Below, piece after piece: positions 44,684-51,981 of a stretch of DNA of 64,000 bases. This DNA is from Thiofilum flexile DSM 14609. Lineage in GTDB: Bacteria > Pseudomonadota > Gammaproteobacteria > Thiotrichales > Thiotrichaceae. Positions within the stretch are counted from its first letter, which is position 1. Every line of letters begins with the position of its first letter. The notes beneath the pieces were generated by a model, which ran no database searches, was not told the DNA's origin, and saw only the letters and a list, made by a program, of their open reading frames with translations. The stretch is from the NCBI RefSeq assembly GCF_000380185.1, contig NZ_KB904748.1, positions 1-64,000 on the forward strand, written 5' to 3'. Both the position numbers and the translations under genes were made by a program.

Positions 44684-45688
44684 TCATTGTAATCCTACCG
44701 GATCAACGATCCCTGCAGGGCAACCGACCTCCACTGGGCGTGAAGCAAGGGCTAAGGTGTTTAGATTACTACTGACAATTGAGCCTTTTAAGCCTAGGGT
44801 GAGTTCGGTAATTAAGCGTCTGCCACCATCGTCTTTACAGGCAATTTTGACTCGCTCACCTACACCCTGACCAAAAGCCTGATCAAATGCGCTGCGGATT
44901 TGACTGCTAGTGACGGTTTTCCCAATATTGTTGGCAAATAACGCTTGTACCGTGCTTTGGTTAATATCGGATAATACTTTAATCGAGTCCGTGAAATACT
45001 GCTCCGCTGGAGCACCATAGCATGTACCGTGTTTAATCCATTCGTGGTTTTCGAGTAGGGATTGTGTGCCGGGCATGACTTGATTGAGTTGAGTTTTGAG
45101 TGTGCTGGATAATGCGGGTGCTGTGAGTGCGCCCCAATCGCCTTGTTTATCTTTTGACTGCTGGTCTTTTGGGACATTGCAGTAAGACGCACGATCAGGC
45201 CATAGCCCATGTAGAGTAAAATGGGTGGCATCAAAGCGTGAGGTGGTTTGGCTTTTGCATTCTTTTTTGCCGGGGGCGGTTTCGCAAAAGGCCGGTTGCC
45301 AGCTAATGGCTAGAACATATTGACCGGATACGGCTGCCGTTGCAGACGTATTGGGGGTAGCCGCAGAGGATAGGACGGGTGCCGTGGGTGAAGGGTTAGC
45401 ACCCGCTAGCGTGCCGCAGTCCATAGCGACCCAACGCTGATTGGGGGTAGACTCTGTTATTTTAAGGAGGTAATGCGTGGGATTATCCGCGCGATTTTTG
45501 GCTATCACGGTATAGGATGAGCCTACCGCTAGTTGAATATTACCGGGGTTATTCGCTTGGCGAATAGAGGGGGTCGCTGGGCATACCTTAGTGGCAGTGA
45601 GTTCACCACTCATTAAAACTTGAGCCGAAACATTTAAGCTCATGAGTAGTGCTAAAATACCGCTGCTGCCAATGATCAAAGAACGCAT
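44684..45688 (-). CDS. ribonuclease T2 family protein
   Basis: A 334-residue secreted RNase. The signal peptide is cleaved near VSA (residue 22). An N-terminal region of about 100 residues precedes the RNase T2 domain, which has both conserved active-site segments, FTLHGLWPDR and HEWIKHGTCYG, with the catalytic histidines. E. coli RNase I is the best-known member. It probably degrades RNA in the periplasm or outside the cell. The N-terminal extension is Cys-containing and of unknown role. Confidence 0.92.
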   Translation of the reverse strand: MRSLIIGSSGILALLMSLNVSAQVLMSGELTATKVCPATPSIRQANNPGNIQLAVGSSYTVIAKNRADNPTHYLLKITESTPNQRWVAMDCGTLAGANPSPTAPVLSSAATPNTSATAAVSGQYVLAISWQPAFCETAPGKKECKSQTTSRFDATHFTLHGLWPDRASYCNVPKDQQSKDKQGDWGALTAPALSSTLKTQLNQVMPGTQSLLENHEWIKHGTCYGAPAEQYFTDSIKVLSDINQSTVQALFANNIGKTVTSSQIRSAFDQAFGQGVGERVKIACKDDGGRRLITELTLGLKGSIVSSNLNTLALASRPVEVGCPAGIVDPVGLQ

Positions 45689-47493: not shown

Positions 47494-48697
47494 CCCCGTC
47501 CGTTCACGGCGGGGATATCAGGCGAATCGGTTGGAAACCGATGATTCGGTCGTTCACTTGAGTTAGAATAGTAGCATGACATCCCCCCTAGTGACGGTTC
47601 TCAAAACGCTAAAAGTACGAGTCAAGGATAAGCACAAGCCTATTCTTGAACGTATGGCTTTTGAGGTGAATCAGGTCTGGAATGCTGCCAATGAAGAAAC
47701 GGCCTATTATGCACATTTACCGATTCCTGAGATGGGTTGGCTTCATGTATACCTGAGCGCTTATGATCTTGCTAAATCTCAAGCAGCTCTACGTAAAGAA
47801 CGGGGGTTTCTCATTCACTCTCAAACAGTTCAAGAAGTGACGGAAGCCCACGAGAAAGCCCGCAAGCAATTCAAGAAAAGCAAATTGCGCTGGAGAATAT
47901 CGAGTGGTTCTAAACGTTCCTTAGGTTGGATACCCTTTAAAAAAGGCGCAGCCATTTGGAAGAATGGACAAGTTCGCTATGCAGGTCACTATTTCAAGGT
48001 ATGGGATAGCTATGGATTAGCTCAATATGAGTTTCGTTCTGGTTCATTCTCTCAAGATGCTAGAGGACGTTGGTATTTCAATGTGGTTGTAGAAGTCCCA
48101 GTTATAGAGTCGATAGCTCAAGGACAAGTGGGCATTGATTTAGGTTTTAAAGATACGGCTACCTGTAGCAATGGCTTAAAGCTTGAATCCAAACAATTCT
48201 ATCGAGAACTGGAATCTAAACTGGGTATAGCTCAAAGAGCTAAACAGAAAAAACGGGTGAAAGCGATTCATGCCAAAATCAAGAATCGTCGTTTAGATGC
48301 TATCCATCAATTCACGACCCAAGTCGTTAAAGATAACAGCTTAATCGTCATTGGCAATGTGAGCAGTTCTGCTTTAGTTAAAACTAAAATGGCAAAGTCT
48401 GTATTAGATGCAGGATGGTACATGCTCAAGACACAACTGAAATACAAAGCGAGTGCGCGGTCAGGGGTGTGTTTAGAAGTCAATGAATCGTACACTACCC
48501 AAGCTTGTTCATGTTGTGGCTGTATTAGCCCCAACAGTCCGAAAGGTAGAATAGGCTTACGAATAAGAGAATGGTCTTGCCCTGAGTGTGGGGCAACGCA
48601 TGATAGAGATGTCAATGCAGCTAAGAATATTCTCGCGCTCGGACATGAGCGTCTGGCAGCAGGAATCCCCGTCCTTTAGGTCGGGGAGGATGTCAAG
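47494..48697 (+). mobile_element. IS200/IS605-type (IS1341-like) element carrying tnpB only
   Basis: About 1.2 kb. The left end holds the hairpin CCCCGTCCGTTCACGGCGGGG-type stem (47494-47514); the right end has a similar one, CCCCG with CGGGG, at 48667-48686. These subterminal hairpins are what TnpA of the family recognises. No tnpA is present, so mobility would depend on one elsewhere. A second hairpin (CGAATC with GATTCG, inner CGGTT/AACCG, 47522-47548) lies before tnpB. Boundaries are uncertain by about 4 bases because of A runs on both sides. The insertion splits a Uma2 gene. Confidence 0.85.
47576..48679 (+). CDS. tnpB: TnpB, RNA-guided nuclease of IS200/IS605-type element
   Basis: A 367-residue TnpB, the Cas12 ancestor family, guided by an omega-RNA from the element's right end. 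RuvC-I is clear: [16 protein letters not shown] with the catalytic Asp. The zinc finger is ACSCCGC...WSCPECG and the RuvC-III block is [15 protein letters not shown] with the second Asp. At the usual RuvC-II position the sequence is [12 protein letters not shown], without the expected Glu; a Glu in [11 protein letters not shown], just before the zinc finger, may substitute. The stop codon lies inside the right-end hairpin, so the omega-RNA overlaps the 3' end of the gene. Confidence 0.9.
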
Positions 48698-49135
48698 AAA
48701 ATGCTCTAACATGACTTGTTCAGGATCAATCAGAATATAATCTTGTAATGAGGCTATAGAGCGATAGTGGGCAAATTTACCACCACGGTCATAGTCACGT
48801 GTACTGGGCGAAAGTACTTCAATAATGATAATAGGGTTTAATAAAGTGGTGTTATTATCACTTAATTCCGGCTGACCACAATAAACTGAAATATCAGGAT
48901 AGGTATCTAATCCAGAGGGTGTATGAACACGCATATCGCTATTCATGGGGTGGCAGGACTTACCAGTCAATTTTTGGCGTAAGAGCGCGTAAACATTACC
49001 CGCTACTTGGGCATGGTTAAATGTACCCCCTGCCATAGCAGTAATCTGCCCTTGAAAATACTCATGACGCTGGGTGTGGTAGGACTCTTGGAGTAGATAT
49101 TGCTCACGGCTGATGGTGTTTTCAACGGGAAACAT
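48698..49135 (-). pseudogene. 5' fragment of a Uma2 family gene, cut by IS insertion
   Basis: Starts [20 protein letters not shown] and has the Uma2 core motifs [23 protein letters not shown] and [12 protein letters not shown], then QVMLEHF, where it runs into the IS right end. The open frame continues into IS DNA to 48557 and would yield a 192-residue hybrid whose last 50 residues are not Uma2. The true C-terminus lies across the element at 47350-47493. Whether the truncated product is active is unknown; the nuclease core residues are all in this fragment. Confidence 0.85.
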
Positions 49136-49331
49136 GGGTTTATCCTATTCATCGTCTATGGTTGTATTGTAGCGGACATCACTACAGATTAGCAGTGTAG
49201 CCGCGTTCTGATTCAAGGTAGCCATCAAACTATAGGAACCCAAGAAACCGATAGAGCACTGAATAGGGGAAATTTCAAACGATTGCTACGTGGATAAGTG
49301 CCTAATCATCAATTAAGGTGCTATAGTACCC

Positions 49332-49413
49332 CCACTCTCGGGGAGCCTTTGGCTGAGATGTGTTGACAGACCCGTAGAACCTGATCCAGTTAGTACTGGC
49401 GTAGGAAAGAGTG
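49332..49413 (+). ncRNA. TPP (thiamine pyrophosphate) riboswitch
   Basis: The THI-box consensus is easy to see: CACTCTCGGGGAGCC, then GGCTGAGA, GACCCGTAGAACCTGATC, and a closing GGCGTAGGAAAGAGTG that pairs with the first bases. A possible -10 (TATAGT) lies at 49322-49327. It is transcribed rightwards. The next gene on its strand is thiB, 860 bases on; the thiamine-kinase-like gene between lies on the opposite strand. No clear terminator or sequestered start codon is seen directly after the aptamer, so the expression platform is unclear. Confidence 0.93.
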
Positions 49414-49433
49414 AAACCCGCCCCTTTCGTGTC

Positions 49434-50231
49434 TCATTGCTCCTGCGCATGGCCTCTTGCCCAATACCATAATTCCGCCAGTACCTGATTCAGCCGTTTT
49501 GCACTCTGTAAGCCTGCTTGCCATTGTTGAGCCGTTACGTGTTGAAAGGCCGGTAGGGTGCGAAGGTGTTGGGGATCTAAACCCCAGGTGACTAACGCCA
49601 CTGCATCAAACCACGCATTACCTAACCCTGCATATTCCCAATCAATGAGAACAAACGGATGAGCGCGTGTTGTGTTTTGGCAGACATTACCTAGATGTAA
49701 ATCATGATGGACTAATACCGGAGGCAGTCGCGGTAAAGTGCTTAGCTTTTCACGCCATTCTGTAAGTAGTGCTTGAGCGAGGGGAGAGGGGAAGCGTTCT
49801 AGCAGGGTTTGATATTGTGCCGTTAGCTGGGTGTAGTCGATTGTGAGCAGAGTGACATCAGCGATTGGGATCGTGATGGATTGCAGCTCGGCTAAGGTCT
49901 GGGGTAGGGATAGGAGAGCGGTTTGACTCAACGCTTGAGGGACTGGCTCATAGGCCTGCATCAGGCATAACCCCTGTGGCACATCGTTACGAATAATCTG
50001 CACGGCCCACGGATAGGGCTGAATGAGTTCGAGTACTTTAGCCTCACACAGGCGATTCACGCTAAAGGCCAAAGTACTCGGCGCATTGACCCGTAACACA
50101 TAAGACTGCGTGGGACATTCAACACGATAGAGCGTATTGCTACTACCGCCACTGAGGGAGTGTAGTACATAAGGAGCCGAGAGTGTGGCTTGCAACCAAG
50201 TATGCAGCCAAATAGATGGGGGTGGAGTCAT
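49434..50231 (-). CDS. thiamine kinase-like phosphotransferase (ThiK-like)
   Basis: A 265-residue aminoglycoside/choline-kinase-fold protein. Motifs: GGSSNTLYRVE (ATP loop), VLRVN (Lys position occupied by Arg), LVHHDLHLGNV (catalytic loop) and VLIDWEYAG (metal-binding Asp). Length and the adjacency to thiB and a TPP riboswitch favour thiamine salvage, phosphorylating thiamine to thiamine monophosphate, over choline or aminoglycoside phosphorylation. It is divergent from thiB with 41 bases between start codons. Its 3' end is 20 bases from the riboswitch on the other strand, which makes it antisense to any riboswitch read-through. Confidence 0.75.
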   Translation of the reverse strand: MTPPPSIWLHTWLQATLSAPYVLHSLSGGSSNTLYRVECPTQSYVLRVNAPSTLAFSVNRLCEAKVLELIQPYPWAVQIIRNDVPQGLCLMQAYEPVPQALSQTALLSLPQTLAELQSITIPIADVTLLTIDYTQLTAQYQTLLERFPSPLAQALLTEWREKLSTLPRLPPVLVHHDLHLGNVCQNTTRAHPFVLIDWEYAGLGNAWFDAVALVTWGLDPQHLRTLPAFQHVTAQQWQAGLQSAKRLNQVLAELWYWARGHAQEQ

Positions 50232-50272
50232 CCGCCTATAGTAACTAAAAATAGGTAAAAGGTTAAAATCCT

Positions 50273-51250
50273 ATGAAAATTCTTGCTCCTCTGGCTGTTA
50301 GTTTAATGGCCTTTAGCGCTCAAGCGGCAGATCTTACGGTTTATACCTATGATTCCTTTATTTCAGAATGGGGACCTGGTCCCAAACTAGAAGCTGAGTT
50401 TGAAAAACAATGTCAGTGTGATCTGAAATTTGTAGCAGTCGAGGATGGCGTGAGCATCCTCAATCGCCTACGGATTGAAGGGGATAGTACGAAAGCCGAT
50501 GTGGTATTGGGTTTAGATAATGGTTTAGTCGAGGAGGCTCGTGCTACTGGCATTTTACAAGAGCATGGTCTGACCTTGCCCGCTTTTAAACCCGAATTAA
50601 AGTGGGAAGATAAAACCTTTGTACCCTATAACTATGGCTATTTTGCGTTTATTTATAATAGCGACAAGATCAAAGAGCCGGTTAAATCCTTAAAAGAGCT
50701 AATCGATTCTAAAGCCAGTGTGATCTATCAAGACCCGCGCACGAGTACCCCCGGACAAGGCTTAATGCTATGGGTCAAGGCCGTATATGGCGATAAAGCG
50801 CCTGAGGCATGGAAGGCATTAGCACAACATACCACGACAGTAACTAAGGGGTGGTGGGATGCGTATAGTATCTTCTTAAAAGATGGGGCGGATTATGTAT
50901 TAAGCTATAGCACCTCGCCTGCCTATCATGTGATTAGTGAAAATAAAACCCAGTATAAAGCCGCACCTTTTGCCGAGGGGCATGTACCCCAGATCGAAGT
51001 CGCTGCTATGACTAAAACCACTCAGCAACCTGAGTTAGCCCGCCAGTTTTTAAACTTTTTAGTCTCAAAAGACGCGCAAACTATTATTCCGGTCACGAAT
51101 TGGATGTTGCCTGTAATTGAGGGTATTGAGTTACCGCCGGTATTTAGTGAGTTGATTCAACCGCAACGAATTGGCTTTAGCAATGAAGAGATTGCTAAGC
51201 ATCGTAAGGACTGGATCAGCGAATGGCGTTCTAGTGCGGTGAAGGAATAG
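50273..51250 (+). CDS. thiB: thiamine ABC transporter substrate-binding protein
   Basis: A 325-residue periplasmic binding protein with a signal peptide (MKILAPLAVSLMAFSAQA). The ThiB pattern is clear: LTVYTYDSFISEWGPGPKLE, then CDLKFV, then STKADVVLGLDN, and a C-terminal PVTNWMLPVIEG segment. It delivers thiamine or its phosphates to ThiP/ThiQ, which are not in the window. The gene lies downstream of a TPP riboswitch but beyond an oppositely oriented kinase-like gene, so riboswitch control would need a long leader. A local promoter would have to sit within the 41-base gap or the kinase gene. Confidence 0.92.
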   Translation: MKILAPLAVSLMAFSAQAADLTVYTYDSFISEWGPGPKLEAEFEKQCQCDLKFVAVEDGVSILNRLRIEGDSTKADVVLGLDNGLVEEARATGILQEHGLTLPAFKPELKWEDKTFVPYNYGYFAFIYNSDKIKEPVKSLKELIDSKASVIYQDPRTSTPGQGLMLWVKAVYGDKAPEAWKALAQHTTTVTKGWWDAYSIFLKDGADYVLSYSTSPAYHVISENKTQYKAAPFAEGHVPQIEVAAMTKTTQQPELARQFLNFLVSKDAQTIIPVTNWMLPVIEGIELPPVFSELIQPQRIGFSNEEIAKHRKDWISEWRSSAVKE

Positions 51251-51352: not shown

Positions 51353-51586
51353 ATGTTAGCCACGCTCACCGCTAAAGGGCAAATTACCATCCCCAAAGCT
51401 GCACGCGAAACCTTAAAGCTCAGCCCTGGGGATCGTATTGAATTTATATTTGGAGATGATGGTAGATTGTTTCTACTACCTGTCACTCGTCCCGTAAAGA
51501 CTCTTAAAGGCATGTTACCTAGACCTGAAAAGCCCGTCAGTCTAGAGGCTATGGATGAGGCTATTGCACAGGCTACCCGTACATGA
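51353..51586 (+). CDS. AbrB/SpoVT-domain antitoxin (VapB type)
   Basis: A 77-residue protein with an N-terminal SpoVT-AbrB swapped-hairpin DNA-binding domain (MLATLTAKGQITIPKAARET, then SPGDRIEF). The C-terminal 35 residues would wrap the toxin. It overlaps the PIN toxin gene by 4 bases (ATGA), so translation is coupled. An inverted repeat upstream is a likely operator. Confidence 0.88.
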   Translation: MLATLTAKGQITIPKAARETLKLSPGDRIEFIFGDDGRLFLLPVTRPVKTLKGMLPRPEKPVSLEAMDEAIAQATRT

Positions 51587-51981
51587 TTGGTTTAGATACG
51601 AATGTCATAGTGCGCTATCTCACCCAAGATGACCCGATACAATCACCCTTAGCGAGTACCTTTATTGAGCAACAACTGTCTACTAACAATCTAGGTGTTA
51701 TTAGTCAGATTGTATTGTGTGAAGTGGCTTGGGTACTGAGTCGGGCTTATCACTACCCACGCGAGCAAGTAGCACAAGCCTTACATGCCCTATTAACCTG
51801 TCAAGAGTTTCAGGTTGAATGTGCTGATCTTGCCATTTTAGCATGGCACGATTATGTACAAGGCAATGCGGATTTCTCAGATTATCTATTAGCCCGCACA
51901 CATCAACAGTTAGGTGCAGATTACACGATTACCTTTGATCGTAAAGCGGCTCATACTGCTACTTTTAAATTGCTAGTGTAG
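51583..51981 (+). CDS. PIN-domain toxin (VapC type)
   Basis: A 132-residue PIN ribonuclease. The acidic active-site residues are visible: GLDTNVIVRY (Asp near 4), LCEVAWVL (Glu near 45), DFSDYLLAR (Asp near 99) and TFDRKA (Asp near 118). It would cleave RNA (tRNA or rRNA in known VapCs) unless bound by the antitoxin encoded directly upstream. All key residues are present, so it is likely functional. Confidence 0.9.
   Translation: MIGLDTNVIVRYLTQDDPIQSPLASTFIEQQLSTNNLGVISQIVLCEVAWVLSRAYHYPREQVAQALHALLTCQEFQVECADLAILAWHDYVQGNADFSDYLLARTHQQLGADYTITFDRKAAHTATFKLLV

Follow-up and report, generated by a model that had tools for sequence, protein, structure and literature searches.

A TPP riboswitch separated from thiB by an opposite-strand kinase gene in Thiofilum flexile, probably a displaced thiB leader

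What does a TPP riboswitch control when the gene just ahead of it lies on the opposite strand? The question is raised by a locus of Thiofilum flexile DSM 14609, in a window consisting of the first 64,000 nucleotides of contig NZ_KB904748.1, where an aptamer points into the 3' end of a kinase gene and thiB lies beyond that gene. A sequence-only reading of the window had proposed either that the riboswitch regulates thiB through a long leader and the kinase by antisense RNA, or that it is an orphan left by inversion or insertion of the kinase gene. The features concerned, in order along the forward strand, are these:

49319-49327 (+): extended -10-like promoter element, TGCTATAGT, just 5' of the aptamer
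49329-49424 (+): TPP riboswitch aptamer (RF00059), 68.3 bits with cmscan and 83.1 bits with our own covariance model
49414-49491 (+): C-rich, G-poor untranslated stretch, a candidate Rho loading site by base composition
49434-50231 (-): intact ThiK-like kinase of the APH/choline kinase superfamily, 265 aa, from motifs and a Pfam APH match of 66 bits
49440-49449 (+): anti-P4 element, CTCCTGCGCA, a potential pairing partner of GCGTAGGA at about 49399-49406 in the aptamer, overlapping the last kinase codons
50232-50272 (no strand): intergenic region of 41 nt with the thiB ribosome site, a TATAGT box and the presumed kinase promoter, by direct reading
50273-51250 (+): thiB, thiamine ABC transporter substrate-binding protein, TIGR01276 401.1 bits against a cut-off of 317.15

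The aptamer itself is genuine. The RF00059 match at 49329-49424 exceeds the curated gathering score of 54.3 (E 2.6e-11), covers the full model (positions 1-105) and is the sole Rfam match at curated thresholds within the 64-kb window; the range of 49332-49413 given by the sequence-only reading is its core, the paired part of which finishes at about 49412. Only three bases depart from columns that are at least 85% conserved, and core and helices are intact. Two of the three form a compensated P5 pair, A-U where the family mostly has G-C, and the third, an A in place of G at J2-4 base 49406, occurs in six other natural aptamers. TAnnnT boxes similar to the -10-like element are found 3-7 nt 5' of the aptamer in most of the relatives displayed; a sigma-70 consensus scan called no site at 49319-49327, which argues that the -35 of the aptamer promoter is weak or absent. 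The genome has a second TPP aptamer (G000:C24), located before thiC. The window aptamer is closest to a thiB riboswitch, with 84% identity as against 73% to the thiC riboswitch, which makes an origin as a copy of the latter less likely.

Judged by sequence, then, the aptamer qualifies as a member of the TPP riboswitch class, and its regulatory unit is incomplete. The first sense open reading frame of at least 100 codons past the aptamer is thiB at 50273, 849 nt away, in good agreement with the roughly 860 bases free of coding sequence that had been noticed on this strand; a search for a small sense gene in the gap yielded frames of 44 codons at most, none of them supported, and no intrinsic terminator was found in 48900-50500. 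The intervening gene is, as had been read, a kinase-like gene on the opposite strand, and it is intact, with its stop codon 10 nt past the end of the Rfam match; the distance of 41 bases between the kinase and thiB start codons also held. Within those 41 nt, the thiB ribosome site (AAAAGG, 50259-50264) lies about 840 nt from the aptamer, and a TATAGT box at 50237-50242 lacks a good -35. The region resembles the leader end of one relative (p 0.003, uncorrected for nine comparisons), a likeness that is suggestive only. The 8-mer CTATAGTA, with its -10-like TATAGT, is present both before the aptamer (49321-49328) and before thiB (50236-50243); it may be a chance repeat, or thiB may now be served by a promoter element that arose by duplication.

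The neighborhood on the other side of the aptamer includes a TnpB gene (IS200/IS605-type RNA-guided nuclease) at 47576-48679 (+). Overlapping it is the 3' end of an oppositely oriented Uma2-family gene (48557-49135), whose frame continues into the end sequence of the element, as though the insertion had replaced the Uma2 C-terminus. Further away, 44684-45688 (-) encodes a secreted protein that carries an HGLWPD motif and, from reading of the sequence only, is probably a member of the RNase T2 family.

The usual position of the riboswitch can be judged from a family sample of 63 genomes (an order-level search gave the identical set). The window gene scores above the curated ThiB cut-off, is the only full thiB of its genome and clusters with Thiotrichales thiB in a tree. 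A thiB above the same cut-off is present in 17 further genomes, 16 of which are assessable, L004 being left out for its short contig. The sequence-only reading had asked whether thiB directly follows the riboswitch in relatives, and in 15 of these 16 genomes a TPP riboswitch does lie next to thiB and on its strand. The exception, Leucothrix arctica (loci L017 and L049 of genome G028; thiB at 4073-5050 of L049), has a thiB without a TPP riboswitch, which reads as an independent loss and indicates that loss of TPP control over thiB is tolerated. The other Leucothrix thiB genes that were checked do carry the riboswitch. A survey of the distance to the next sense open reading frame of at least 100 codons, covering 58 distinct TPP aptamers of the family, gives the same picture: 56 of the others reach such a frame in 264 nt or less (median 50) and for one the contig ends first, leaving the window aptamer, at 849 nt, as the only one with a known distance above 264 nt. 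The nine thiB leaders examined are short, with 66-80 nt from P1 to the ATG and a Shine-Dalgarno-like site near the ATG, and can be read as translational switches by homology to E. coli tbpA, where the riboswitch hides the ribosome site and mRNA-level effects are consistent with Rho (PMC11487190). The 21 nt that follow the window aptamer have no sequence similarity to these leaders.

The transporter genes of T. flexile are themselves dispersed, with thiP and thiQ together on a different contig that lacks thiB; thiL is present in the genome. Separation of thiB from thiP-thiQ is common to T. flexile (L042) and Leucothrix (L044-L048), the kinase being kept with thiB in the former and with thiPQ in the latter. 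On the 3' side of thiB, 51354-51981 holds a short AbrB-type antitoxin-like gene followed by a PIN-domain (VapC-like) toxin gene; the PIN gene was covered by the domain test and the AbrB-type call was made by look.

The kinase retains the motifs HHDLHLGN and DWEY. Among NCBIfam models it matches ThiK (TIGR02721) best, but its 54.7 bits fall well short of the cut-off of 299.45, and the label "thiamine-kinase-like" of the sequence-only reading is thus apt, where "ThiK" would be too strong. Solved structures, tried as a guide to the substrate, gave weak partial matches only. Because the neighbors of the gene in relatives are thiamine-transport genes or TPP riboswitches, a role of the kinase in thiamine salvage is very probable, and from gene context it may still be a thiamine kinase. 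Strong homologues within the family are confined to this genome and to Leucothrix genomes, with which the window kinase groups in a tree (support 97/92); the Leucothrix kinase gene stands head-to-head with thiP-thiQ, and no riboswitch was detected at those loci. At 29 other loci, mostly from Oceanospirillaceae, kinase and thiB form a head-to-head pair at a thiB-thiP-thiQ cluster, and the TPP riboswitch found at 11 of them always lies between both genes and on the thiB strand. Homologues that are more remote are found some 3 kb past a TPP riboswitch and in its sense direction, and at the three such loci that were checked the kinase follows a TonB receptor and a PnuT-like (NMN_transporter) protein. 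When 80 kinase loci (L062-L141) were scanned with a TPP covariance model, none had a riboswitch past the kinase 3' end pointing into the kinase, which speaks against a conserved antisense layout.

These gene orders bear directly on how the arrangement arose. Since the head-to-head loci place the riboswitch between the two genes, the pairing of kinase and thiB is old and the position of the riboswitch beyond the kinase new, and since kinase, thiB and aptamer each resemble those of Thiotrichales relatives, the simplest history is that gene order changed locally. As history, the proposal of an orphan left when the kinase gene was inverted or inserted is therefore well supported by the gene order of relatives. 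Either of two routes could have led there, re-insertion of the kinase into the leader or duplication of a kinase-riboswitch unit followed by loss of one copy of each part. No significant match was found for the kinase remnant that the second route would be expected to leave to the left of the riboswitch, and a search for target-site duplications at the junctions gave direct repeats of 8 nt at the longest, which is near chance. The genome is a draft of 71 contigs, and one might ask whether assembly has simply joined unrelated pieces; this is scarcely credible, given that a partner sequence of the aptamer lies inside the last kinase codons (see below), that kinase and thiB form a conserved head-to-head pair elsewhere, and that no repeat longer than 8 nt links both junctions.

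Part of the switch remains. At +28 past the aptamer, within the last kinase codons (GHAQEQ-stop), lies CTCCTGCGCA, and a duplex of eight pairs is possible between it and the P4/J2-4 strand GCGTAGGA. The duplex, at -15.2 kcal/mol, is reached by 15 of 5000 dinucleotide shuffles, a p of 0.003 that must be taken cautiously as the element was spotted in a fold before testing; duplexes of this strength are given by 3 of 3654 window stretches, and the pairing is included in the predicted minimum-energy fold with 60 nt of downstream sequence. When the unchanged consensus arm is put in place of that of the window the pairing is less striking (p 0.08), which suggests that the G-to-A change in the aptamer matches the opposing U. 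Comparable though individually weaker pairings (p 0.02 to 0.2) occur at +6 to +31 in several relatives and in the genome's own thiC leader; none was found in the Leucothrix and L020 leaders. The stretch at 49414-49491 contains 30 C and 12 G in 78 nt, at the 99th percentile of the window, and the anti-P4 pairing and C-rich stretch together could serve Rho.

The reading we prefer, with a probability of roughly 0.55, is that this is a displaced riboswitch from a thiB leader, now largely an orphan and capable at most of weak TPP-dependent read-through. The layout, its absence from relatives and the preservation of the aptamer are established at the level of sequence; the functional steps that follow are proposals. 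A local gene-order change would have left the leader with an opposite-strand gene in it, the ThiK-like kinase that is an old partner of thiB. The aptamer, the -10-like box and the anti-P4 half would have stayed together (49319-49450), and the Shine-Dalgarno half would have stayed with thiB. The usual output of the family, hiding of the thiB ribosome site, would no longer be workable, because that site no longer adjoins the aptamer. Untranslated C-rich RNA just 3' of the aptamer would be exposed to Rho, and more strongly with TPP bound; as this G-poor stretch has a base composition that suits Rho and no intrinsic terminator was found, most transcripts would end soon after the aptamer, within the kinase antisense region. 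Expression of thiB would come mainly from its own start, at a putative promoter in or near the 41-nt intergenic region. Support for displacement comes from the position of thiB directly behind the riboswitch in nearly all assessable relatives, the exceptional distance in the window, the short leaders of relatives and the masking of the ribosome site in tbpA, a leader of the same type. It comes as well from the head-to-head loci with the riboswitch between the genes, from the affinities of kinase and thiB to Thiotrichales and of the aptamer to a thiB riboswitch, and from the L. arctica thiB that does without one. Three points run against it: in this single genome of the genus both the aptamer and the anti-P4 element, with its match to the G-to-A change, look maintained, as a dead relic need not be; the TATAGT box that is the candidate thiB promoter has no good -35; and the case for Rho is one of base composition only.

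In the main rival reading the riboswitch would still control thiB through a long leader of the noncontiguous-operon type. At low TPP the anti-P4 element would pair with the aptamer and cover part of the C-rich stretch, and the polymerase would cross 850 nt antisense to the kinase before entering thiB; at high TPP, Rho would end transcription early. The preservation of aptamer, -10-like box and anti-P4 element is consistent with this proposal, as are the C-rich stretch directly 3' of the aptamer, the single copy of thiB, and the existence of operons that contain an opposite-strand gene (PMC7154746). Nonetheless, transcription would hardly get past Rho over 850 nt without translation, it would run against the firing of the kinase promoter, and a comparable layout was absent from all 80 kinase loci, and we regard a working long leader as possible but doubtful. 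An extended version, in which a functional riboswitch with its switching element in the 3' coding end of the kinase gates, through Rho, one long RNA that is both antisense to the kinase and leader to thiB, is improbable; if it were true, one metabolite sensor would act on two salvage genes in opposite senses.

The antisense part of such schemes can be weighed separately. Antisense-acting riboswitches were first described at Clostridium ubiG (SAM) and Listeria pocR (cobalamin), and the present layout, with a riboswitch at the 3' end of a gene pointing inward, fits the class (PMC9943018). By analogy, the RNA made by read-through at low TPP would repress the kinase. The sign is wrong, however: adaptive antisense control is unlikely because low TPP is just the condition in which a salvage kinase would be repressed. 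The gene order of relatives suits co-expression of the kinase with thiamine uptake, the gene standing either head-to-head with thiB or downstream of a TPP riboswitch in its sense direction; the antisense layout is not conserved, and no intrinsic terminator like those used in the ubiG and pocR cases was found here. A 2023 survey, moreover, found 83 antisense against 9,766 sense TPP riboswitches, with no enrichment (p 1.00; PMC9943018). Antisense regulation of the kinase, as the sequence-only reading had it, is very improbable on this evidence. Of the proposals in that reading, the orphan origin is well supported and antisense control of the kinase is not; a long leader to thiB is possible, but the usual platform is physically split here.

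Under displacement, the locus offers a natural case of a riboswitch split from its gene with the aptamer still intact, and a test of whether translational riboswitches outlast such splits by switching to Rho-dependent control. It also carries a caution, namely that a riboswitch in antisense orientation is not automatically an antisense regulator; here, relatives trace the layout to a change in gene order.

Several known systems resemble parts of this arrangement. The leaders of thiB/tbpA-thiP-thiQ operons in E. coli and Thiotrichales share with it the aptamer family, the placement of the -10-like box and a related thiB, and several relatives have a similar anti-aptamer pairing; in those leaders, however, thiB lies no more than about 100 nt away and the switch includes the thiB ribosome site, whereas in the window thiB lies behind an opposite-strand gene. 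Loci of Oceanospirillaceae and others (e.g. L073, L085, L091 and L112) have the homologous kinase head-to-head with thiB, but with the riboswitch, at the 11 of 29 loci that have one, between the genes and pointing at thiB, and with thiP-thiQ after thiB, neither of which holds here. The antisense riboswitches of Clostridium acetobutylicum ubiG and Listeria pocR are likewise transcribed from a gene's 3' end into its antisense strand, but those two cases have intrinsic terminators, a sensible sign of control and experimental demonstration, in contrast to a locus whose relatives indicate displacement. As in the noncontiguous operon (PMC7154746), an opposite-strand gene interrupts a former single transcription unit, in this case a riboswitch leader plus thiB; here, though, the continuous transcript is hypothetical and what precedes the interrupting gene is a leader only. 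Set beside these systems the locus is not of a new kind, antisense TPP riboswitches having already been catalogued, and its useful part is the clear evolutionary context.
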